A stretch of 44,983 nt of DNA, from positions 1 to 44,983 of the IMG/VR virus record IMGVR_UViG_3300036806_000165, one strand, 5' to 3'. The translations under genes were made by a program, and so were the position numbers. Shown piece by piece: positions 1,502-35,637 of the stretch. Numbering within the stretch: the first letter of the stretch is position 1; the number at the start of each line of letters is the position of its first letter. The notes beneath the pieces were generated by a model. It was not told the DNA's origin. It did not search any database and saw nothing but the letters and a program-made list of their open reading frames with translations. The DNA comes from a virus.

Positions 1502-1761
1502 AGCAGAATTTCCTTTGGTTATTTTATTTTACCCAGCCCGATCGCCTCTGTTGCAGCGCCCGCGTCGCGGCACATAGCCGAGCGGATGCCTGTTCGGTGA
1601 TGAGCGAACATCTCGGCGGGCGCCCGCTGGTCGCCGAGGAATTCAAGCACCCAGAGCCGGGCACAATCCTGAGCCATTTCGGCAAGACAATGGATGAGCG
1701 CGTCGGCCTGGTGGCCTTCGTCAACCTCGAAGGTCAATTCGTCGAGGTGCCAGCGCAATGA
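1498..1761 (+). CDS. Small unknown protein between tail tip genes
   Basis: A GTG start at 1498 overlaps the DUF2460 stop by 4 bases, and the TGA overlaps the next ATG at 1758. The 87-residue frame is therefore coupled on both sides. Codons after about residue 14 have mostly G or C at third positions, as in neighbouring genes; the first dozen are AT-rich. An internal ATG at 1600 could give a 53-residue product. No family is recognised. The opposite strand is also open here, but it runs against the operon and is less likely. Confidence 0.6.
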   Translation: MKQNFLWLFYFTQPDRLCCSARVAAHSRADACSVMSEHLGGRPLVAEEFKHPEPGTILSHFGKTMDERVGLVAFVNLEGQFVEVPAQ

Positions 1762-2654
1762 AGCCGCATTCTCCCGAGCTCCTGGCGCTGCTGGCGACGC
1801 GCCAGTTCTTCGTCGCCGACCTGTGGACCATCACCCTCGTCGGCGGCGTCATCCTGCGCTATTGCGCCGGCGACGCGCCAATCACCGCGAACGGCCTGTT
1901 GTATCCCTCGGGCGGCGTGACCGGCCCCTATTTCGACCGCACCGACAACAAAGCGAAATGCCATTGGGGCGTCGGCACCAGCGCGGACACCCTGATCGTC
2001 GACGTCATCCCTGGCGGTGCGACGGTGCTGGGCCAGTCCTTCCTTGCGGCCGTGAGGGCTGGCGTCTTCGACGGCGCCGAGGTGATGCTTGAGCGCGCTT
2101 TCATGCCGACCTATGGCGATACCAGGGTCGGCGTGGTGCGGCAGTTCGTCGGGCGGCAGGCGGAATTGGTCGCGGGGCGCTCGATCGCCACCATGAGCAT
2201 CAATAGCCATCTCGAGCTATTGAACCGGCAATTTCCGCGCAACGTCGTCCAGGTCGGATGCCTGAACAATCTCGGCGACACACAATGCACCGTCTCCCTG
2301 GGGTCTTTCCAGCGCACCGCCACCCTGACCGGCACTCCAGGAATCGGCAGCTTCACCGCGACGCTCGGCGCGAGTGTGACGTCGGGCTTTCTGGATCTCG
2401 GCACCGTCACCTTCACCAGTGGAGCGCTCAACGGGTTCACCGCCACGGTCAAAAGCGCCCCCGTCACCGGCGGCACGACCGCCACCGTCAGCCTGGTGGG
2501 TCAATTGCCGTCCCCGCCTTCGGCTGGCGACACCTGCACCATCACTTATGGCTGCAACAAGTCCTATACCGACGCCAATGGCTGTCCGAAATTCTCGAAT
2601 ACCGTCCATTATCGCGGCATGCCCTTCGTGCCGCAGCCGACCGTGGCCGTCTGA
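1758..2654 (+). CDS. DUF2163/BR0599-type tail hub protein
   Basis: This 298-residue protein resembles the hub of gene-transfer-agent-like tails (DUF2163 N-terminal part, BR0599-like C-terminal part). The C-terminus has the family-like run of Cys, 'CPKFSN', then 'YRGMPFVPQP'. Cysteines at residues 168, 177, 266 and 276 form the pattern that in related hub and gpL proteins holds an iron-sulfur cluster; C260 is additional. The insert at about residues 185-255 is Ser/Thr/Gly-rich and looks like beta structure. It sits between DUF2460 and NlpC/P60 genes, with ATGA and TGATG overlaps. Confidence 0.85.
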   Translation: MKPHSPELLALLATRQFFVADLWTITLVGGVILRYCAGDAPITANGLLYPSGGVTGPYFDRTDNKAKCHWGVGTSADTLIVDVIPGGATVLGQSFLAAVRAGVFDGAEVMLERAFMPTYGDTRVGVVRQFVGRQAELVAGRSIATMSINSHLELLNRQFPRNVVQVGCLNNLGDTQCTVSLGSFQRTATLTGTPGIGSFTATLGASVTSGFLDLGTVTFTSGALNGFTATVKSAPVTGGTTATVSLVGQLPSPPSAGDTCTITYGCNKSYTDANGCPKFSNTVHYRGMPFVPQPTVAV

Positions 2655-3157
2655 TGCGGACCATCGCCGAGCAGCGCGCCTCCGTCATCGATGAAGCCAT
2701 GTCCTGGCGCGGCACGCCCTATATTCCGAGCGGCCGGATCAAGGGGGTCAACGGTGGCTGCGACTGCCTGACCTTTCTGGTCGGGGTCTTCGAGAACGCC
2801 GGCATCATCCCCGAGGGCCAGCCGCTGCCGGTCTATGCCCATGACTGGCACCTGCACAATCACACAGAGTATTATCTGCTCGGCAAGGACGATATGCCCG
2901 GCGTGCTGCACTTCTGCCGCGAGGTCGACGGCTCGGAAATGAAGCCGGGCGATGTCGTGCTCTGGAAATTCGGGCTCGACTATTCGCACGCGGCAATCGT
3001 GGTCGACTGGCCGCAGATCATCCATGCCTTCTCGCGGCGCCCCGTCGGCGTCGATGACGCGCTGCGCAAGACCGTGCTGTTGAAAATCCATGAGGTGATA
3101 GCGCTGCGCAACACGCCACGCCCGCGTCGCTATTTCCGCGTCAAGGATTGGAACTGA
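2654..3157 (+). CDS. NlpC/P60 cell-wall peptidase of the tail tip
   Basis: The ATG at 2654 overlaps the hub stop (TGATG), giving 167 residues. It is a compact NlpC/P60 domain. The motif GGCDCLTF contains the likely nucleophile (C38, or C36), and YSHAAIVV supplies H112; H124 is a candidate third residue. In tails of this type the enzyme cuts peptidoglycan cross-links during DNA entry. An upstream extension of the same frame lies inside the hub gene and was rejected because the TGATG start gives a normal family length. Confidence 0.9.
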   Translation: MRTIAEQRASVIDEAMSWRGTPYIPSGRIKGVNGGCDCLTFLVGVFENAGIIPEGQPLPVYAHDWHLHNHTEYYLLGKDDMPGVLHFCREVDGSEMKPGDVVLWKFGLDYSHAAIVVDWPQIIHAFSRRPVGVDDALRKTVLLKIHEVIALRNTPRPRRYFRVKDWN

Positions 3158-6100
3158 TGGGCGCGCTATTCGGCGTTTCCAATACCAACGCCTCGACCCC
3201 GAAATATACGGGCATGCAGTTGCAGAGCAGCGCCTATGGCATCCCAGTGCCGGTGGTCTATGGCGTCACCCGCGTCGGGTGCAACCTGCTGGACTATGTC
3301 AATTTTCTCTCGCACCAGACGCCGAGCTCGAGCGGCGGCAAGGGCGGCATTGTCGGCGGCGGCGGCAAAGGATCGAGCAGCACCAGCTATTCGGCTTCTG
3401 TCGCGGCGCTCGTCTGCGAGGGCCCGGCCACCGGCATCAATAGCGTCTGGTCCTCGCAGACCCATCTCGCCGGCACCCCCGGCTTCGACGTCTTCGACGG
3501 CACCATCGCCCAAACGCCTTGGGCCTACCTCACCAGCGCCTATCCGACGCACGCCCTGACCTATAGCGGGTTCGTCTATGCCGGCGGCGAGAACTATGAC
3601 CTCGGCTCATCGGCGAACCTGCCGAACTTGAACTGGGAACCGCTCGCCATCTTCGCAGGCAGCGCGCCCGGCACCTATGGCGGCAATGGCTGCTATGCTG
3701 GCGGAGACGCGGACTTTTCGAAGATCGTCCCTGACATTCTCTCCAACGGCCAATATGGCGTTGGCTTTCCGGCGGCGCGCGTGGGCCAAGTCAATAGCAA
3801 CGATGAGGCGCATGCGGTGCCTGGCGGCGGCCCATACACCATCACCGTCACGAACGCCGCGACCTATTCCTACAATATCAACGCGACGGTCCTCTCGGGC
3901 ATAGGCCTGCTGACCTGTGTTGCGAGTTCGCCAGCGACCGGGCAATACAGCTTCAATGCCGGCACAGGCGTCTATACCTTCAACGCGGCCCAGGCCGGCG
4001 TGACTGTCAATATCCGGTATGTCTCCGTCGGCTTGATGGTGGCCTACCAGAATTTCACTCTGGCCTCTGGCCTGTGGGCATCGCCCGCCTTCGTCGATCA
4101 GACCGCCGCGTCCTCGATCATCGACGACATCGCGACCGCCTCTTATTCGGAGGTCGTCTGGTCCTCTGGCGTATTGCAGATGATACCGCGTGGCACCGTC
4201 GCGATCACCGCCAACGGCTATACCTTCACGCCGAACACGACGCCGTTGTTCAACCTCACCGTCGACGACTTCATGCCGAACACTGGCAACTCCACCGACG
4301 ATCCGATCACCCTGACGCGGGTCCGTAAGAGCGACCAGACCAACGTCATCCGCATCGAGGCGCTCGACCGCGCCAACCAGTACGCGCCGATGATCGTCGA
4401 GGCCTCCGATATGGGCCTCATCCAGATCTATGGCCGCCGCGTCGCCGCGACCAAGTCGCTGCATATGTTCGCCGACGTAAATGCCGCCACGGTCAGCGCG
4501 CACCTGCAGCTGCAGGACGAGTACATCCTCAACCATTATTCCTTCCAGCTCGATGAGCGCTATGGCCTGCTCGATCCGATGGATATGGTTGGCGTCACGG
4601 ATGTCTACTTCTCCGGCCTGACCGGCACCGGCGTTCGGCTGTTAGACCTGAGCGAAAATGACGATGGCACCGTCGTCATCACCGCCGAGGAATACCCCGG
4701 CACGCTCGGCTCGGTCCCGGCCTACAATATCGACATCGGTTCGGGCGCCGTGCCGGATTTCAATGTCGATCCGGGCAATGCGCGCACCCCGGCCGTGTTC
4801 GACGTCCCAGTCCAGGGCGTCGGCACATTTGGCCTCGAGACCTGGCTGGCGACCTGCTCCGCGACTGGCAATCCCAATTGGGGCGGCTGCGAAATCCATT
4901 TGGCGACGGCGTCCGGCGGGCCCTATGCCAAGGTCGGCGAGATCGTCGGCGGAAGCCGCATCGGGGTACTCACTGCGACGCTGGCGAGCGGCTCCGACCC
5001 CGACACGACGCATACCGCCTCGGTCGACTTGAGTCTGAGCCTGGGCGTGCTCGAATCTGGCACGACCTCGGACGCCGACACCGATACCACGCTCTGCTTC
5101 ATCGATGGCGAATATGTCGCATTCTCGACCGCGACGCTCACCTCGACCTATAATTACGATCTCACGACGTATTTGCGGCGCGGGCAGTGGGGCTCGGCAA
5201 TCGCCTCACATGCCATCGGCGGCCTTGTCGTCCGGCTCGACGACAATGTCTTCACCATGCCTTATGTCGCCGCCGACAAGGGCCGCACGATCTATATCAA
5301 GCTCCGCTCCTTCAACATCTATAAGGCCGGCTACCAGGACGTCTCGTCGCTCGGCTATACCGCGCACACCATCGGCGGACCGCCAGCGATCTACGCGCCT
5401 ACCAGCCTCGCGGCTGCGCCCACCCTTCTTGGCATCCAGTTGAAATGGGTCAACGCCCCCAACGTCGGCATTGCGGCGATTGAAATCTGGCGCTCGCCGT
5501 CCTCGTCGTTCGGCTCGGCCACCCGTATCGCGGACGCCGGCGCCTATGACACAGCCTATACCGACCAGAGCGTGGCTGCGGCGACGACGTACTGGTATTG
5601 GATCAGGCCGCGCGACATCGCTGGCAATGAGGGCAACTACGACCCGTCCAGCGGCGGCGCCGGAGCGACCGCCACCAGCGGCATCGTCTCTGCCGGGATG
5701 CTCGAGCTGGTGGACCCGGACAACCTGATCCTCGACGCGCAATGTCTTGACCCGACCTATTGGTCGAACCTAGGCGTGTCTGGCACCTTCACAAGCATCG
5801 CGGGTGCAGGCGCATGGAATTCAATTAACCGCATCGCCTCCCCTGTCTCCGCTACCAGCATCTCGGTCATCGCGAACTTGGCACCATTTCAAGTTCGCCC
5901 TAGCGAGCGCTACTACATGGAATGCGCGTTCGGCATGGACAACAACACTGCCGCTGGCGTGCAGGTCCGCATGGACTTCTATGACGAAGCGCAGACCTAC
6001 TTGTCCAGCCAGTACCCCACGGGCGGCACTCAGACCGTCGCAGCGCTCTACCATTGCAATAATACCGATGTGAACGGCTTCGAAGCCCCCGCTGGCTCCT

Positions 6101-7254
6101 TCCAGGCGCGCATCTTGCTCATCAGCTTCATACAGGCGGGCAACAGCGGCAACTTCTACCTCGGCGGTCCTGTCGTCCGGCACATCAACAGCAGCAGCCT
6201 GATCGGCCCGGCGGCGGTCGGGACCACCCAGCTCGGCGTCAATAACCTAGAGAACATCATCACGAACCCGCAGTTCGTGGATGGTAACGGGGCTCCATCG
6301 CTATCTGGCTGGGTCAACGGCGCTGGCACTTTCAGCGTGAGCGACCAGGGCTCTGGTTATGGGGCAGGCGGTTGGCCGTGTCGCTACGTCGGGATCCAGC
6401 AGTCCCGCGACATCTACTTCGCTGTCGCTGGGTCAAACGGCAGCGCGGGCGCCACGGCGGGCATGATCCCGGTCACACCTGGAGACGTGTGGTTCATGTC
6501 TGCGACAGCGGCGAACGGGTCGACCCATCTGGGTCAGATGGGGATGCACTTTCTGTTGGCGGACGGTACCGCCGATACTTTTGCTGCCGCCGCCACAATC
6601 GCGGGCGGCGTCGTCACCCCGACGTTCATCAGCGGTCAGGTGACAGTCCCAGCGGGCTACATCTGGGCGCAGCCGTGGATGCAGGAGAACGCGTCCAGCG
6701 GCTTTGGCAACTTCGCCTACACCAACGTCATCTGCCGGAAGGCGACGGACAACCCGCTGCTCGCCCCGAACGCGGCTGGCACGACGAACATCATCCTCAA
6801 CGCGGTGACGGCGAACCCGTCCAGCAGCCTCGGCGCGGTCAACGTCCCCGGCGACCAGTCCTCGACCCCGAACATCGTCAGCGTCTCCTTCACGCTGGAC
6901 TTCGACTGCGCGGTGACGATCACGATCAGCGGGTCGACGTCCTGCGTGAGCTACCCGACCAACACGCCGATCAGCCTTGGCTACGACATCAAGATCGACG
7001 GGGTGACCGTAAGCAACACGGGGCTTGGAGCGCTTTTCGACAGCACCACGCCCACACAGTTCACATCCAACCCGTTCCCGCTGACCGAGAGGATACTGGT
7101 CAAGAGGCTATCCGCCGGCGCGCACACGCTCACCTGCCCGGCGACGGGCATCAACCAGTCCGGCAATTCCGGCTACCCGTACTACGCGCCGGTCTACTCG
7201 GCCACGCCCATCGTCGTCACCGCGACGGCGACGATCGAATACCCACACAGGTAA
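3157..7254 (+). CDS. Large tail tip / host-specificity protein
   Basis: The ATG at 3157 overlaps the peptidase stop (TGATG); the TTG nine bases upstream is less likely. The 1365-residue product is the expected size for the 'megatron' tip protein after NlpC/P60 in gene-transfer-agent-like tails. The N-terminus carries the Gly/Ser-rich loop (about residues 55-75) seen in tail tip attachment proteins. A region at about 745-845 looks like a fibronectin type III domain (repeated Trp, Tyr and 'YTDQSVAAATTYWY'). The C-terminal 450 residues are Gly/Ser/Thr-rich beta-like sequence and probably act in receptor contact. Confidence 0.85.
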   Translation: MGALFGVSNTNASTPKYTGMQLQSSAYGIPVPVVYGVTRVGCNLLDYVNFLSHQTPSSSGGKGGIVGGGGKGSSSTSYSASVAALVCEGPATGINSVWSSQTHLAGTPGFDVFDGTIAQTPWAYLTSAYPTHALTYSGFVYAGGENYDLGSSANLPNLNWEPLAIFAGSAPGTYGGNGCYAGGDADFSKIVPDILSNGQYGVGFPAARVGQVNSNDEAHAVPGGGPYTITVTNAATYSYNINATVLSGIGLLTCVASSPATGQYSFNAGTGVYTFNAAQAGVTVNIRYVSVGLMVAYQNFTLASGLWASPAFVDQTAASSIIDDIATASYSEVVWSSGVLQMIPRGTVAITANGYTFTPNTTPLFNLTVDDFMPNTGNSTDDPITLTRVRKSDQTNVIRIEALDRANQYAPMIVEASDMGLIQIYGRRVAATKSLHMFADVNAATVSAHLQLQDEYILNHYSFQLDERYGLLDPMDMVGVTDVYFSGLTGTGVRLLDLSENDDGTVVITAEEYPGTLGSVPAYNIDIGSGAVPDFNVDPGNARTPAVFDVPVQGVGTFGLETWLATCSATGNPNWGGCEIHLATASGGPYAKVGEIVGGSRIGVLTATLASGSDPDTTHTASVDLSLSLGVLESGTTSDADTDTTLCFIDGEYVAFSTATLTSTYNYDLTTYLRRGQWGSAIASHAIGGLVVRLDDNVFTMPYVAADKGRTIYIKLRSFNIYKAGYQDVSSLGYTAHTIGGPPAIYAPTSLAAAPTLLGIQLKWVNAPNVGIAAIEIWRSPSSSFGSATRIADAGAYDTAYTDQSVAAATTYWYWIRPRDIAGNEGNYDPSSGGAGATATSGIVSAGMLELVDPDNLILDAQCLDPTYWSNLGVSGTFTSIAGAGAWNSINRIASPVSATSISVIANLAPFQVRPSERYYMECAFGMDNNTAAGVQVRMDFYDEAQTYLSSQYPTGGTQTVAALYHCNNTDVNGFEAPAGSFQARILLISFIQAGNSGNFYLGGPVVRHINSSSLIGPAAVGTTQLGVNNLENIITNPQFVDGNGAPSLSGWVNGAGTFSVSDQGSGYGAGGWPCRYVGIQQSRDIYFAVAGSNGSAGATAGMIPVTPGDVWFMSATAANGSTHLGQMGMHFLLADGTADTFAAAATIAGGVVTPTFISGQVTVPAGYIWAQPWMQENASSGFGNFAYTNVICRKATDNPLLAPNAAGTTNIILNAVTANPSSSLGAVNVPGDQSSTPNIVSVSFTLDFDCAVTITISGSTSCVSYPTNTPISLGYDIKIDGVTVSNTGLGALFDSTTPTQFTSNPFPLTERILVKRLSAGAHTLTCPATGINQSGNSGYPYYAPVYSATPIVVTATATIEYPHR

Positions 7255-8945: not shown

Positions 8946-11510
8946 ATGAAACACTATATCGTTGGCCTGGCTTTGACGGGGATATTCGGCATTGCTCCGG
9001 CTGCGGCCCAAGTTGCCATTTCCGCGCTGCCATCTGCGACCACACCGCTGGCCGGGACTGAAGTTGTTCCTTGCGTCCAAAGCACAACGACGAAGAAATG
9101 CGCCGTTAGTGATATCGGCGCGATTCTCCCGAATGTCGTGACGGCCGGGACCACTGGCGACAGCACGCATGTTCCGCAGATCACAGTCGATGCGAAGGGT
9201 CGCATCACCAGCATCACGTCCATCCTTATTACTGGCGGAAGCGGAGCGGTTTCGAGCGTCTTCGGTCGCACCGGCGTGGTTATCGCGACGATCGGCGACT
9301 ATTCGTTCGACTTGATCAGCGGCAGCGTGACGCTCGCTCAACTGCCTTCGATCGCTGACAATACGCTTCTCGGGAATACGTCCGGCGGCTCGCACGTCCC
9401 GGCGGCGCTAACGGTCAATAGTGGCTCGAATTGCGGCGATTCCACTCACGCCCTGAAATGGACTAACGACACCGGCTTTGGCTGCCAGGCGATCACGGGT
9501 TCTGCCTCTGCCGGCGGCAGCGATACTCAGTTGCAGCGCAATAACGGCAGCGCGCTTGGTGGCATCAGCGGCGCGACGACTGACGGCACGGCGGTCACAA
9601 TGGCAAGCGGTGATCTTAAGCTTTCTGGTTCATCGAGTGGCACCGTGATCCTTAACGCGCCGGCGACTGGTGGTGGTACGCTCACCCTTCCGGCGGGCAC
9701 TGATACGGTCGCCGCGCTCGCCGCGACGCAAACCTTCACTAACAAATCGATTGCGGCATCCGAAGTCAATTCAGGGACACTGTCAGCATCCCAGATGCCT
9801 GCGTTAACCGGGGATGTCGCGACCTCCGCCGGCGCGGTGGCGACGACACTCGCAACCGTCAACAGCAACGTCGGTACATTCGGTGACAGCACTCACTGCG
9901 CTTCGGTAACGGTCAACGGCAAGGGGCTGGTCACAGCCGCGTCTCAGGGCACATCCTGCCCTGGTGGGGCGGGCAGCGGCATCGCCGTCACCGATGGAAC
10001 AAACAGCGTTTCCGGAACAACCACGGCCATTTTTGGCAATGGCTTCCGTGTCAGCGGCACAACCCCGAATGCGACGATCAATTCCACCCTCAGCGACATA
10101 ACGAAGACCACCAGCCATTCCGCCGCAATTGGCGACATGGGCAACGCCCTCAATCTCTCGGGCACGTTCACGCTCACCTTGCCGACCGCAACCGGATCGC
10201 TGTTCGCGCCGGGGCAATCACTCGCGGTTCTCAACAGCGGCTCTGGCAATATCACACTTACGAACAGCACCGGCCTGACCATGACCGGGCTCAACAGCAC
10301 GACGCTAATCCCTGGGACGAGCGGTACATTTATTGCCAACGCCAACGGCACGGGGATTGATTTCTTCGCGGCGATGCAGACACCATCCGCGACTGCACTT
10401 GGCGGGGTTCTGTCATCAACTTGCGCCGCGACGAATTTTGTTACCGGAATCACAACAGGTGGCGCGCTGACTTGCGCGGTGCCTTCTGGCGGTGGCGGGG
10501 CCAGCACTATTGTTTCCCCGCAGCCGCGCTTTTCATTACAAAGCGGAGCGGGTGTAGAAACAGCGGATGTTGCCCCGACAAGCACGACTTATCTAGTCTG
10601 TTGGGGGCGCGGAAATAATATTCCGTATTACACGGGATCAGCAGACGCACTGGACACACCAGCTTGTGGCACCAACGTGGCAAGCGATGTAATGCCGACC
10701 AGCAGCACTGGCGTAACCAACAGCGGCGCCGTCATTGACTTTTTCTGGTGTCATTCCTGTGGTGGTGGGTCTCTTGTCCACGTTACTGATGGCTCCGGTG
10801 GTGGTTGGGCTGCAGATACTAGCGGCTCGGCAACAGCACGTGGAACAGGATATAGCGCTGTTCATTATACGCGAGGCTACTGGACAAATACGAATGCTAT
10901 TGGCTCCGGCACGACCGGACGCGTCTATAACGGCAGTACGCTCTACAACAACATCGCAGCGGATCAGCTTACATACTACGACACCTGCCAGATGACCGCT
11001 GCCGGGACAACCCGGCTTGATTTACTGCCGACCCCGGCGGCTGGGGGTACGAACAATGTCATCGGATGCTGGAACGCCTACAAAGAAAATCGAGTTTCGG
11101 TTACTGCAAAAGTCGTAGATACGACTACTGGCTTTACTTATGGGACAGCTACATGGCTTGTGGCGGACGCAAGCAACACTGGGAGCGGCCTCTTTAATAG
11201 GCTTACTCAGGTTTTTGGGCTGCCGCAAACTCGCGTGACGTTCAATTTCAATCCGTTCATAACTAATGCATCTGTGGCGCCTCTGTGTTTAACGGGAGTT
11301 GATCTTGATAGCACTTCAGCGAATCCAAACTTGGCTGGCGCTCTCCAACCGTTAGCAAACAGTGGCGCTCAGAGCCCGGTAACGGATACGTTCGCTCCTG
11401 GGTCCGGGGTTCACTACCTACAGGAAATGGTATTTGTTGGCGCCTCGGGAACCTGTTCCTACGGCGGCATCGGTAACAGTTTTGCGATGCTGGTTAATAC
11501 CGAGTATTGA
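8946..11510 (+). CDS. Tail fibre-like protein with N-terminal signal peptide
   Basis: An AAAGGAA ribosome site precedes ATG 8946. The 854-residue product begins with Lys-His, a hydrophobic core and an A-A-A-Q cleavage-like site near residue 22, i.e. a Sec signal peptide. After it comes 'ISALPSATTPLAGTEVVPCVQ', a motif of phage fibre N-termini. The middle is built from Gly/Ser/Thr-rich fibre-like sequence with recurring L-x-x-T-L-L/T-G-N and 'AATQTFTNKS' elements. The last 300 residues differ, with scattered Cys and aromatic residues, and probably form the receptor-binding head. A fibre with a signal peptide is unusual. Confidence 0.8.
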   Translation: MKHYIVGLALTGIFGIAPAAAQVAISALPSATTPLAGTEVVPCVQSTTTKKCAVSDIGAILPNVVTAGTTGDSTHVPQITVDAKGRITSITSILITGGSGAVSSVFGRTGVVIATIGDYSFDLISGSVTLAQLPSIADNTLLGNTSGGSHVPAALTVNSGSNCGDSTHALKWTNDTGFGCQAITGSASAGGSDTQLQRNNGSALGGISGATTDGTAVTMASGDLKLSGSSSGTVILNAPATGGGTLTLPAGTDTVAALAATQTFTNKSIAASEVNSGTLSASQMPALTGDVATSAGAVATTLATVNSNVGTFGDSTHCASVTVNGKGLVTAASQGTSCPGGAGSGIAVTDGTNSVSGTTTAIFGNGFRVSGTTPNATINSTLSDITKTTSHSAAIGDMGNALNLSGTFTLTLPTATGSLFAPGQSLAVLNSGSGNITLTNSTGLTMTGLNSTTLIPGTSGTFIANANGTGIDFFAAMQTPSATALGGVLSSTCAATNFVTGITTGGALTCAVPSGGGGASTIVSPQPRFSLQSGAGVETADVAPTSTTYLVCWGRGNNIPYYTGSADALDTPACGTNVASDVMPTSSTGVTNSGAVIDFFWCHSCGGGSLVHVTDGSGGGWAADTSGSATARGTGYSAVHYTRGYWTNTNAIGSGTTGRVYNGSTLYNNIAADQLTYYDTCQMTAAGTTRLDLLPTPAAGGTNNVIGCWNAYKENRVSVTAKVVDTTTGFTYGTATWLVADASNTGSGLFNRLTQVFGLPQTRVTFNFNPFITNASVAPLCLTGVDLDSTSANPNLAGALQPLANSGAQSPVTDTFAPGSGVHYLQEMVFVGASGTCSYGGIGNSFAMLVNTEY

Positions 11511-15908: not shown

Positions 15909-15992
15909 ATGAAAGATGTTTCTGAGGAGAAGAGCGTAAGCCCAAACCGAGCCAGTCGGGCGATTTGGGCAAACGAATCAAAACCCGACTGA
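15909..15992 (+). CDS. Possible 27-aa peptide in the short transcript
   Basis: The ATG at 15909 follows GAGGGAC closely, and the frame ends at TGA 15990-15992, just before the terminator stem. The product is polar (MKDVSEEKSVSPNRASRAIW...). Its position opposite a repressor is that of a Cro-like or peptide regulator, but the sequence alone is too short to assign. It may be chance. Confidence 0.3.
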   Translation: MKDVSEEKSVSPNRASRAIWANESKPD

Positions 15993-16005
15993 ATTTGGAC
16001 CAGAA

Positions 16006-16036
16006 GCCACCGGCTCCATCGGGTCGGTGGCTTTTT
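16006..16036 (+). terminator. Terminator between promoter and transposase
   Basis: GCCACCG at 16006-16012 pairs with CGGTGGC at 16025-16031, followed by five T. It separates the strong 15858 promoter from the transposase start at 16055, so transposase expression would need read-through or a second promoter. Confidence 0.85.
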
Positions 16037-16054
16037 CACGAATCAAGGCGTGCC

Positions 16055-16942
16055 GTGAGCAACCTGTCAGGAGACCAGAAGTCCGCCGTGATCGCGGCCC
16101 TGTGTGAGGGTGTCAGCATCCGTGCGACGGAGCGCCTGACAGGCATCCACCGAGACACGATCATGCGTCTAGGAGTGAAGGTGGGGCAGGGGTGCAATGC
16201 TCTTCACGGCCAGCTGATGGTCAATCTTCGTGTCAGCCGCGTTGAACTGGACGAGGTATGGAGCTTCGTGAAGAAAAAACGCCGAAACGTCCAGGAAAAT
16301 GATCCCGACACGGTGGGCGACCAGTTCGTCTATATCGCGATGGACTCAACCGGGAAGGCTATACTGTCGTGGCTGGTCGGGAAACGAAACACCCGCAACA
16401 CAATCCGCTTTGTGGAGGACGTTCGCCATCGCGTCCTGGGCAATCCTGAAATCTCCACTGACGGCTACACACCATACATTCGCGCCGTCGATGAAACCTT
16501 TCAGGGCATCGCAGACCACGGCATCGTGGACAAGCAGGAGGTCGTTATCGCTAAGGGGCCTGATGCCGACAAATACTATGCCAAACAGGTTCTGGTGAAA
16601 GTCGTGCGCACTGCGATCAGTGGCAGCCCCAAGCGCATCTCCACCAGCTTTATCGAGCGCCAGAACTTGACGCTGCGTATGTCGCAGCGGCGGCTGACGC
16701 GATTATCGAGCGGGTTCAGCAAGAAGTACGAAAACCACTGCGCCGCGGTTGCGCTGTATGTGACACATTATAACTTTTGCCGAGTGCACGAGACGTTGCG
16801 AATTACCCCAGCCATGCAGCTTGGTGTGAGCGATCACGTCTGGTCAATTTCTGAATTGGTTACCGCGGCACTCGCGGGCGAGATTCAGGAGCGGATTCAA
16901 ACTGAGTTGCGATTTCGGGTAATTAAGGGCGATAAAGCTTGA
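16055..16942 (+). CDS. IS1-type DDE transposase
   Basis: The GTG at 16055 with AAGGCG upstream gives 295 residues and matches the usual start of the stand-alone IS1-like family; a TTG at 15965 would read through the terminator hairpin. An HTH region is at residues 10-40 (ALCEGVSIRATERLTGIHRDTI). Candidate catalytic residues are D66 (ELDEVWSFV), D136 (STDGYTPYI) and E201 (SFIERQNLTLRMS). The C-terminus (YENHCAAVALYVTHYNFCRVHETL) is family-typical. The frame is intact. I found no inverted ends or target duplication, so mobility is uncertain. Confidence 0.85.
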   Translation: MSNLSGDQKSAVIAALCEGVSIRATERLTGIHRDTIMRLGVKVGQGCNALHGQLMVNLRVSRVELDEVWSFVKKKRRNVQENDPDTVGDQFVYIAMDSTGKAILSWLVGKRNTRNTIRFVEDVRHRVLGNPEISTDGYTPYIRAVDETFQGIADHGIVDKQEVVIAKGPDADKYYAKQVLVKVVRTAISGSPKRISTSFIERQNLTLRMSQRRLTRLSSGFSKKYENHCAAVALYVTHYNFCRVHETLRITPAMQLGVSDHVWSISELVTAALAGEIQERIQTELRFRVIKGDKA

Positions 16943-31886: not shown

Positions 31887-32252
31887 ATGGGTCGATTGAA
31901 GGCGATCGGTTCGCGCGTGGTGACGGTCGAGACAAGACGTGTGATGCCACCACCAAAGGAAGCGGACGCGATCTACTCCACCACCAATCATCGAGACTGG
32001 CGCGCGTTAGTCGTCGCCAATGCAGGCGGCCAGTGTGAGGCGCGCGACGGCAATCACCGTTGCTGGAAGTCCGAGCCTCACGTGCGCTTGTATGCTGACC
32101 ACATCATCGAGCTGAAGGATGGCGGCGCGCCGTTCGACGTGAGCAATGGTCAAGCACTATGTGCGAGGCATCATACGTTGAAGACCGCAGTCGAGAAGCG
32201 CAGGCGCAATGGCTGGGCTGGCACTCCCGAAGCAATACCCAGGGGAGGATAA
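31887..32252 (+). CDS. HNH endonuclease
   Basis: 121 residues from the ATG directly after the previous stop. The HNH core is YADHIIELKDGG (D71, H72), N87 in 'DVSNGQALC', and H95/H96 in CARHH; Cys at 50, 59 and 92 may help bind metal. Virion HNH proteins encoded next to HK97-type terminases assist cutting at cos sites. This makes cos-type packaging likely. Confidence 0.9.
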   Translation: MGRLKAIGSRVVTVETRRVMPPPKEADAIYSTTNHRDWRALVVANAGGQCEARDGNHRCWKSEPHVRLYADHIIELKDGGAPFDVSNGQALCARHHTLKTAVEKRRRNGWAGTPEAIPRGG

Positions 32253-32365: not shown

Positions 32366-32782
32366 ATGACCCCTGGTCGGAAGCCGTATCAACCGACGAA
32401 AGCCCAGCGCAAAACCGTCGAACTTTGGCGCGGATGCGGGCTTTCCGAGCAGGCAATGGCCGATTCTTTGGGGATCACTAGGGTGACCCTCAGGAAGCAC
32501 TTCAAGGTCGAGCTTGCTACCGGCGCTGGGCGCGCACGGGCAGAGAATTTGGCCAGGCTGAAAAAGGCGGCGGAAGGCGGCAGCGTCGCGGCGATCAAAT
32601 ACCTGGACGCGAAGTTGATCATCGCCCCATCTGACTTCACCGCTGCATCGATTGTGGCGCCGGAGCCGCAAAAGCCAAAGCTCGGCAAGAAAGAACAGGC
32701 CGTCATTGACGCCGCAAACCCTGATACCGAGACGATGATGGGCGATCTGATGGCTCAGCGCGCGGGTCTGCTTACCAACTGA
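32366..32782 (+). CDS. terS: Terminase small subunit
   Basis: The ATG at 32366 has GAAAGG upstream; 138 residues. An HTH is visible at about residues 12-50 (KAQRKTVELWRGCGLSEQAMADSLGITRVTLRKHF), followed by a helical oligomerisation-like region. The C-terminus is Lys/Pro-rich. The stop overlaps the large-subunit ATG (TGATG). Position and HTH support DNA recognition by the packaging motor. Confidence 0.8.
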   Translation: MTPGRKPYQPTKAQRKTVELWRGCGLSEQAMADSLGITRVTLRKHFKVELATGAGRARAENLARLKKAAEGGSVAAIKYLDAKLIIAPSDFTAASIVAPEPQKPKLGKKEQAVIDAANPDTETMMGDLMAQRAGLLTN

Positions 32783-35637
32783 TGGCGTGGGATTTATCGT
32801 GCCGCGACTGGCAGGATAGAATCCGGGCCGGTACGTCCCTCATTCCAAAGCTTCCTCTATACGAGGCCGAGGGAGAGATAGCGGTTAAGTTTTTCGACGC
32901 GCTGCGCCTGCCGGACGTTGCCGGCCTGCCGCTGATGCGCGATGCCTCCGGGCCATGGTTTCGTGACATCGTGCGGGCGCTGTTCGGTTCGCGCGACCCG
33001 GTGACCAACGTCCGGTATGTGGAGGAAATCTTCGCCCTGGTGGCGAAGAAGAACAGCAAAGCGATTGCACTCGACACATTGATTGCGACGCCGACCGGGT
33101 TCGTGACAATGGGCAATGTTCGGATCGGCGATGCCGTGATGGACGCTAATGGCCAACCGACGAAGGTCACCGCTAAATCGGAAGTCTTTGTTGGGCACGA
33201 TTGCTTTGAGGTTGTGTTTAGTACCGGCGAATCTGTCGTCTGCGACGCAGAACATCTCTGGATAACTGACGCTCATAAGGACAGAGAAAAACGACGCGGG
33301 CACCATCGCAATGCAGAGTCACCCTCTGCTAAGACAACACGAGAGATTGCCGCGTCCCTGAAAGTGTCTAGCGGGCGTTATGTCATCAACAATCACCGCA
33401 CCGCATTGTGCGGAAAGCTTGATTGTCCGCAATCCGATTTGAAAATTCCGCCATATGCACTTGGCCTTTGGCTTGGCGACGGCACGACGAGTCAGGCGCA
33501 GATAACCGCGGGCCTGGCCGAAGCCGATATCCTGGTCGGTGAACTTGTAGCGAATGGACAACCAGCATTCGTAAGGTCGCGCTATCCAGAGAAAGGATCG
33601 ACGACAATCTCGTTGACGATACCAGGAACCGTCAATCTTTCGCTGCCATATAGATTTCGCACCGAGGCAATCAAACTCGGGTTGCTAGGACGAAAGCATA
33701 TTCCGCAATCATATTTGCGCGCCTCAAATGATCAGAGGATGGCGCTCTTGCGCGGACTGATGGACAGCGACGGATCGATCGCCAAAAGCGGCCAGGCGGC
33801 TTTCACCACGACACTTGAATGCCTTCGAGACGACGTTCGTGAGTTGATAAATTCTCTTGGCTTCAAATCAACGGTATCGGAGCATAGAGCAAAGATTTAC
33901 GGTAAGGACTGCGGGCCAGTTTGGTTCATCCAATTTTGGCCTTTTGATACCGCCCCTGTTTTCAGTCTTGCCAAAAAGCTGGTGCGGCAGATGGGATCGA
34001 AGGCGAAAAACTCCGCGCGATCCAAAACCAGACAAATTGTTGATGTCCGCAAGGTCAAGAGCGTCCCCGTCCAATGTATCGCGGTTGCGAGCAAAACCCA
34101 TCAATATCTCGTAACGCGATCACTTATACCGACCCATAACACCACCAACGGCGCGGCGCTGATGCTGACCGCCATGCTGATGAATGGAAGGCCGCGGGCG
34201 GAATTCCTTTTTGTAGGGCCGACCCAGGCGATCAGCGACCTGGCCTTTTCCCAGGCCACCGGCATGATCGAAGCCGACCCGGAATTGAAGCGCCGGTTTC
34301 TCATCCGCGAACACGTCAAGGAGATCAAGGACCGTCTCAACGGCGCCAAGTTGCGGATCAAGACCTTCGACCTCGATATCCTGACTGGCCCGCGCCCGGC
34401 CGGGGTGCTGCTGGACGAGCTTCACCTGCTGGGCAAGCACAGCCAGGCATCCAAGGTGCTGCGCCAGCTGCGCGGCGGGCGACAATCGATCCCCGAGGGC
34501 TTCATGGTCATCTTGACCACGCAGTCGGATGAACCGCCGGCCGGTGCGTTCCGGGAGGAATTGACCAACGCGCGGGCGGTGCGCGACGGGCGGGCGGGCG
34601 GGATTGTTCTGCCGGTGCTGTATGAGTTCCCGCCTGAGTACACGGCGCCGGTGCGGCGCGACCAGACGCCGGCTTGGTACGACCCCTCGATCTGGCACAT
34701 GGTGATGCCGAACCTGGGGCGATCGCTGCGCATCGAGGCGCTGGTCCAGGACTTCGAGACGGAAAAGCTTAAAGGCGAGAGCGCCATCCGGGTATGGGCC
34801 TCGCAGCACCTCAACATCGAGATTGGCATCAGCCTGCTGTCCGACCGCTGGGCCGGCGCCGACTTCTGGCAGGCCGCTGCGGAGCCGGAATTGGCCGACC
34901 TGGACACGCTGCTCGACCGCTGCGAGGTCGCCACGGTTGGGATTGATGGTGGCGGGCTGGACGATTTACTCGGCGTCGCGGTGGCGGGCCGGGAAAAGGT
35001 GACGCGGCGCTGGCTGCTATGGACCCATGCCTGGGCACACCAGACCGTCCTCGATAGGCGCAAGGAGATCGCGCCGGCCCTGCGAGACTTCGCCGCCGCC
35101 GGAGACCTGACCATTGTCGAGACCCCTGGCCAGGATGTTGAGGAAGTGGCCGACATTGTGGAGCGGGTGCAATCCTCCGGCATCCTGCCGCTGAAGAACG
35201 GCATCGGCGTTGACCCGGTCGGCATCGGCCAGATCCTCGATGCCCTGGTCGAACGCAATATGCCGGAAGGCTGCACGGTCGCCGTAAGTCAGGGCTGGAA
35301 ACTGAGCGGCGCCATCAAGACGGCCGAGCGCGGCCTGAGTGACCTGACGCTGGTGCATGGTGGCCAAGCCATGATGGCCTGGTGCGTCGGCAACGCCAAG
35401 GTCGAGCCTCGCGGCAACGCGATCACGATTACGAAGCAGGCCGCCGGGACGGCGAAGATCGATCCGCTCATGGCGAGTTTCAACGCCATATCGCTGCTGT
35501 CGCTCAACCCGGATGGGGTGCGGTCAGTCTATGAGGAGATCGCCGCCGAGCCCGAGCCGGAGAAACCTGATCCCAATAGGGCGATCATCATAGATCGCCG
35601 CGGCGACGAGGAGGCGTTCTGGCATGAGCTTCCTTGA
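32782..35637 (+). CDS. terL: Terminase large subunit precursor with intein
   Basis: The precursor has 951 residues; removing residues 94-453 leaves a 591-residue HK97-type (Terminase_1) protein. The Walker A motif is rebuilt as KKNSK-TT across the splice point. Walker B is VLLDELH (D545, E546) and the nuclease motif VGIDGGGLDD begins at about 719 (D722). It translocates DNA into the prohead and cuts it at the end. Without splicing the ATPase should be dead, because the insertion splits the P-loop. Confidence 0.92.
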   Translation: MAWDLSCRDWQDRIRAGTSLIPKLPLYEAEGEIAVKFFDALRLPDVAGLPLMRDASGPWFRDIVRALFGSRDPVTNVRYVEEIFALVAKKNSKAIALDTLIATPTGFVTMGNVRIGDAVMDANGQPTKVTAKSEVFVGHDCFEVVFSTGESVVCDAEHLWITDAHKDREKRRGHHRNAESPSAKTTREIAASLKVSSGRYVINNHRTALCGKLDCPQSDLKIPPYALGLWLGDGTTSQAQITAGLAEADILVGELVANGQPAFVRSRYPEKGSTTISLTIPGTVNLSLPYRFRTEAIKLGLLGRKHIPQSYLRASNDQRMALLRGLMDSDGSIAKSGQAAFTTTLECLRDDVRELINSLGFKSTVSEHRAKIYGKDCGPVWFIQFWPFDTAPVFSLAKKLVRQMGSKAKNSARSKTRQIVDVRKVKSVPVQCIAVASKTHQYLVTRSLIPTHNTTNGAALMLTAMLMNGRPRAEFLFVGPTQAISDLAFSQATGMIEADPELKRRFLIREHVKEIKDRLNGAKLRIKTFDLDILTGPRPAGVLLDELHLLGKHSQASKVLRQLRGGRQSIPEGFMVILTTQSDEPPAGAFREELTNARAVRDGRAGGIVLPVLYEFPPEYTAPVRRDQTPAWYDPSIWHMVMPNLGRSLRIEALVQDFETEKLKGESAIRVWASQHLNIEIGISLLSDRWAGADFWQAAAEPELADLDTLLDRCEVATVGIDGGGLDDLLGVAVAGREKVTRRWLLWTHAWAHQTVLDRRKEIAPALRDFAAAGDLTIVETPGQDVEEVADIVERVQSSGILPLKNGIGVDPVGIGQILDALVERNMPEGCTVAVSQGWKLSGAIKTAERGLSDLTLVHGGQAMMAWCVGNAKVEPRGNAITITKQAAGTAKIDPLMASFNAISLLSLNPDGVRSVYEEIAAEPEPEKPDPNRAIIIDRRGDEEAFWHELP
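33061..34140 (+). other. Class 3-type intein with LAGLIDADG endonuclease
   Basis: The intein spans 360 residues, from Ala94 to the terminal T-H-N (N453), with Thr454 as the +1 residue. It starts with Ala rather than Cys or Ser. It has the class 3 triad: Trp160 in CDAEHLW (block B), Cys432 in VPVQC (block F) and Thr451 in PTHN (block G), plus His158. Both endonuclease motifs look intact: LGLWLGDG (227-234) and LLRGLMDSDG (322-331). It probably both splices and homes. Confidence 0.9.

Follow-up and report, generated by a model that had tools for sequence, protein, structure and literature searches.

A class 3 intein, full length and probably active, in the Walker A loop (TerL1-a site) of an HK97-like phage terminase

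Inteins inserted between the Lys and Thr of the Walker A loop of the phage large terminase subunit (TerL) have already been described as TerL1-a (Kelley et al. 2016, PMC5050341). They occur in mycobacteriophages, for example in Rimmer TerL, and in a Kocuria rhizophila prophage (PMC5050341). For the TerL inteins of BAKA (TerL1-b) and Bethlehem (TerL1-c), both splicing and cleavage of empty TerL DNA have been shown, and the TerL inteins tested so far splice quickly (PMC5050341).

We identified an insert of this kind in the TerL gene of IMG/VR virus record IMGVR_UViG_3300036806_000165, analysed over a stretch of 44,983 nucleotides (hereafter the window). Sequence comparison, a structural model and analogy with characterized systems make it highly probable that the insert is a full-length class 3 intein occupying the well-known P-loop (TerL1-a) position in a TerL of the HK97 type, probably active and predicted to splice and to home. 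It shares with the Rimmer intein (331 aa, also full length) the Lys/Thr site, Ala at position 1, the HLW motif, the block F Cys and the terminal THN, but the two are 32.5% identical and belong to different TerL lineages and host groups. The TerL intein of Vibrio phage 489E54-1 (OX241561; 345 aa) has the same K/T site, the Trp-Cys-Thr (WCT) triad and both LAGLIDADG motifs; however, it is 37% identical to the window intein and resides in a different TerL. The class 3 inteins MchDnaB1 and MsmDnaB1 (6RIX, 6RIY, 6BS8) have the splicing domain, triad, Ala1 and THN in common with the window intein, whereas they are mini-inteins of 139-146 aa, located in DnaB and without a nuclease. The BAKA and Bethlehem inteins carry a LAGLIDADG nuclease, as does the window intein. 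That of BAKA is full length with a class 3 triad and lies in Walker A, one residue off the window site, whereas that of Bethlehem lies in another helix.

The window TerL is a single uninterrupted frame of 951 codons (32782-35637; 951 aa), and its start overlaps the stop of the small-terminase-like gene in the sequence TGATG (Table 1). The extein segments (residues 1-93 and 454-951) match large terminases, and precursor residues 94-453 (33061-34140; 360 aa) are foreign to terminase. The insert is flanked by Walker A Lys93 and Thr454, the upstream junction reading VAKKNSK93/AIALDT and the downstream junction IPTHN453/TTNGAA. An HNH endonuclease gene (31887-32252, + strand) immediately precedes the terminase genes, an arrangement shared with HK97-like packaging modules.

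Table 1. Features of the terminase locus, in window coordinates.
Feature	Coordinates	Strand	Evidence
Probable small terminase subunit	32366..32782	+	PHROG phrog_309 (terminase small subunit) E 9e-5, phrog_12540 E 8e-24; directly precedes TerL
N-extein of large terminase, residues 1-93, with Walker A KKNSK at its end	32782..33060	+	tblastn, intein-free TerLs 46-60% identical; phrog_7622 terminase large subunit
Class 3 intein (by sequence), 360 aa, Ala1 to Asn360	33061..34140	+	phmmer to 6rix/6riy/6bs8; aligned with 79 IMG/VR relatives, every one with WCT
N-terminal splicing part, blocks A and B (Ala1, His65, Trp67)	33061..33270	+	66% aa identity to L027, residues 1-80
Region spanned by both LAGLIDADG motifs of the predicted homing endonuclease, intein residues 134-141 and 230-238	33460..33774	+	Pfam LAGLIDADG_3, Hom_end; invariant columns; PI-SceI and I-DmoI matched by Foldseek
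C-terminal splicing part, blocks F and G (Cys339, Thr358-His359-Asn360)	34021..34140	+	Aligned with MchDnaB1 Cys124 and THN; 80% aa identity to L027
C-extein of large terminase (remaining ATPase, nuclease domain), first residue the Walker A Thr	34141..35637	+	Pfam TerL_nuclease E 3.2e-9; phrog_9 terminase large subunit E 2.4e-97; HK97 TerL 6z6d weakly matched by intein-free orthologue

The edges of the insert can be placed exactly at Lys93/Thr454 because intein-free orthologues read through the site. Eleven such TerL loci are gapless across it (L002-L007, L010-L012, L014 and L017, the last two apparently a single sequence). The empty site reads VPKKNAK/TTNGAA in Sphingomonas laterariae (L017) and VPKKNSK/TTNGAA in L005, and the orthologues thus show an uninterrupted KKNxK/TT where the window is split between the invariant P-loop Lys and Thr. 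The sequence-only reading of this DNA had put an intein at precisely this point of the large terminase, and the 11 empty orthologues agree. An intein-free orthologue aligned weakly with HK97 TerL 6z6d (E 0.0017), with KKNAKT opposite ARKNGKT, in keeping with its assignment to Walker A. A search for a near-identical intein-free sister phage found none; the best empty site shared 39 of 48 nt around the junction.

The residues of the insert are those of a class 3 intein. Position 1 is Ala, with no Cys, Ser or Thr there, and block B contains H65-L-W67. The triad consists of Trp at B:12, Cys at F:4 and Thr at G:5 (W67, C339 and T358), followed by H359-N360 at the intein C-terminus and Thr at +1; in precursor numbering W67 is W160, C339 is C432, residues 358-360 are T451/H452/N453, and the +1 residue is T454. 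In a phmmer search of the PDB, class 3 DnaB inteins ranked first (6RIX, E 2.5e-24). C339 aligned onto Cys124 of MchDnaB1, the assigned nucleophile of the WCT motif (PMC7664689). W67, C339 and T358 were kept without exception in eight phage inteins and in 79 IMG/VR inteins (80/80 rows of the IMG/VR alignment, including the window), and His65 and THN were invariant or nearly so among the aligned relatives. The contrast between intein classes rests on published class definitions, as low-scoring phage matches chosen as class 1 controls nearly all had the class 3 triad too and gave no negative control. On these grounds the sequence supports assignment to class 3. The residues and numbering given in the sequence-only reading were all recovered, and its equation of a WCT triad lacking Cys/Ser at position 1 with class 3 holds with the triad placed by alignment to solved class 3 inteins. 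A different residue at the block F nucleophile position, which it had named as contrary evidence, was not seen.

Two LAGLIDADG motifs were found, LGLWLGDG (intein residues 134-141) and LRGLMDSDG (230-238), with both motif acids (D140 and D237) and the block D residue K212 present; Pfam LAGLIDADG_3 matched at E 2.5e-9. Both acids are kept in 75 of the 79 IMG/VR relatives (76/80 aligned rows including the window). An AlphaFold2 model of the intein, with 30 IMG/VR and window rows as its input alignment, had a mean pLDDT of 88.8. Foldseek matched the model to PI-SceI over the whole chain (E 3.7e-20), to I-DmoI over the nuclease, and, for the splicing domain, to class 3 DnaB inteins (TMt 0.83-0.88); the predicted structure has the HINT splicing fold. 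These results agree with the earlier description of the nuclease as apparently intact.

A relative in L027 (IMGVR_UViG_2710723518_000009) interrupts an orthologous TerL (exteins 52% identical) at the same position and keeps all catalytic residues. With 63% intein identity it is otherwise the same element, but differs in its higher GC content (61%). Codon comparison of the two gave pS 0.74 and pN 0.27 for the whole intein, 0.69 and 0.25 for the N-splicing part, 0.78 and 0.31 for the nuclease part, and 0.72 and 0.13 for the C-splicing part, the ratios being rough as synonymous changes are near saturation. Both the splicing and nuclease parts look to be under purifying selection. The window intein has a GC content of 52% and a GC3 of 0.55, compared with 61-65% and 0.75-0.83 in the exteins, as would be expected of a later arrival. 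Its distribution among TerL orthologues is patchy; in L037, a third TerL from this broad family (42% precursor match), the same position holds an intein of 41% identity. Patchy occurrence, low GC and conservation fit a mobile element. In the intein tree the window was firmly grouped only with L027 (support 100), and deeper branches were weak. When the whole phage of L027 was compared, its packaging and tail genes proved broadly though weakly related to those of the window, and the intein may therefore have been inherited together with TerL instead of arriving by a separate transfer.

The sequence-only reading had regarded a full-length class 3 intein with an intact nuclease as uncommon. This part does not stand: the TerL1-a type was already published (PMC5050341) and such inteins are numerous in phage genomes, mostly at such a site. 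The window intein was matched by 724 phage records at E <= 1e-5. A single-sequence scan of IMG/VR returned no relatives, whereas alignment queries did: a scan keyed on the nuclease motifs, and by that design uninformative on the share of mini-inteins, yielded at least 592 confirmed relatives. A second scan was keyed on the splicing block alone. Among the best 80 of the matches listed, 74 had a readable end; 70 of these 74 were full length (>=277 aa), including two of 277 and 281 aa in which no nuclease motifs could be recognised, four were minis of 130-155 aa, and 69 of the 74 were at K/T or K/S. Choosing the best 80 favours likeness to the window query and the full-length share is no census, but these comparisons exclude rarity of full-length class 3 inteins.

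Across 385 alphaproteobacterial genomes we detected three clear relatives, two with a full-length profile match (L119 and L120) and one smaller (L121); L119 and L121 carry the class 3 triad on reading. The L121 intein, of about 209 codons and without a nuclease match, lies at GK/T of an ATPase-like protein. Class 3-like inteins also occur elsewhere in apparent Walker A loops, at G/SGKT (L186), at K/TGK (L166 and L192) and before CGKS (L065, which ends in PTGN and has lost the penultimate His). As these are inserted at differing points, the group appears to hit several positions of such loops. A relative in Vibrio phage D462 (L114:235-1257) has the block F Cys and THN, with His-Ile-Asn in block B instead of His-x-Trp. 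Located at AK/TT, close to the beginning of a protein that carries the annotation 'DarB-like antirestriction', it is possibly a class 3 variant without the Trp in a misnamed terminase.

Elsewhere in the window, a tail module of phiJL001 or gene-transfer-agent type (1758-7254, + strand; Phage_phiJL001_Gp84_N, NlpC/P60 and Rcc01698-like) points to an alphaproteobacterial host. Downstream of the tail genes, where GC falls, an 854-aa ORF (8946-11510, + strand) without a match in Pfam, PHROGs or NCBIfam is possibly a tail fibre. The genome also encodes an IS1-family-like transposase (15965-16942, + strand; NCBIfam IS1 E 3e-17, below its cut-off), for which no clear terminal inverted repeats were detected; it may be either an insertion element or a phage-borne DDE protein.

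From class 3 biochemistry (PMC5222942), we predict that Cys339 attacks the Lys93-Ala1 peptide bond to give the first branched intermediate. The acyl group would then pass to Thr+1 (Thr454), Asn360 would cyclise with the help of His359, and the exteins would be joined as KKNSK-TTNG, rebuilding the Walker A loop. Conservation of these active-site residues is in itself no proof of efficient splicing. The nuclease may cut this site in the intein-free terminase genes of co-infecting phages or of resident ones, with repair copying the intein in; motif integrity, selection and precedent suggest such homing. Packaging should depend on splicing, because unspliced TerL has a disrupted ATP site.

Alternatively, Thr+1 could attack the N-terminal junction directly, as in class 2 (KlbA-like) splicing, leaving Cys339 dispensable; an Ala in first position suits either of these classes. 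Class 2 inteins of the KlbA type lack the WCT triad, but the window intein and its 79 aligned relatives all have the complete triad, and the solved structures that it matches best by sequence are the class 3 DnaB inteins, leaving the class 2 route a very low probability. An active splicing domain might also be paired with a nuclease that no longer homes, that is, one that does not cut present-day empty sites. Homing nucleases commonly decay once fixed, and the first LAGLIDADG acid is gone in 4 of the 79 aligned relatives. We consider such decay unlikely in the window intein, given the retention of D140, D237 and K212, the conservation of the nuclease part relative to L027 and the PI-SceI-like fold predicted with high confidence.

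The intein might instead be domesticated, with redox- or metal-timed splicing making TerL active late in infection. Mycobacterial DnaB inteins are reported to change their splicing under oxidative stress and with chlorine species or zinc (PMC6195587, PMC8557812, PMC7360933), and the nucleophile here is also a Cys, in an ATPase active-site loop. A redox- or metal-sensitive Cys339 could then act as a timing switch, delaying the rebuilding of the terminase ATP site until late infection, and the phage would gain from keeping the intein. The patchy distribution, intact nuclease and low GC suit a mobile element, and the tested TerL inteins splice fast (PMC5050341). Thus, regulatory use seems very improbable, and we judge the timing switch equally so.

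We conclude that the window most probably carries a mobile, self-splicing class 3 intein, another member of a group known from other phages, where its activity has been demonstrated. The example is clean and apparently intact, nuclease included, and comes from an HK97-like terminase in what is probably a phage of Alphaproteobacteria. The survey corrects the idea of rarity, as full-length class 3 inteins far outnumber minis among the matches listed in sampled viral contigs. Among the solved class 3 intein structures found here there are only minis, and one that retains its nuclease would be a sensible structural target.
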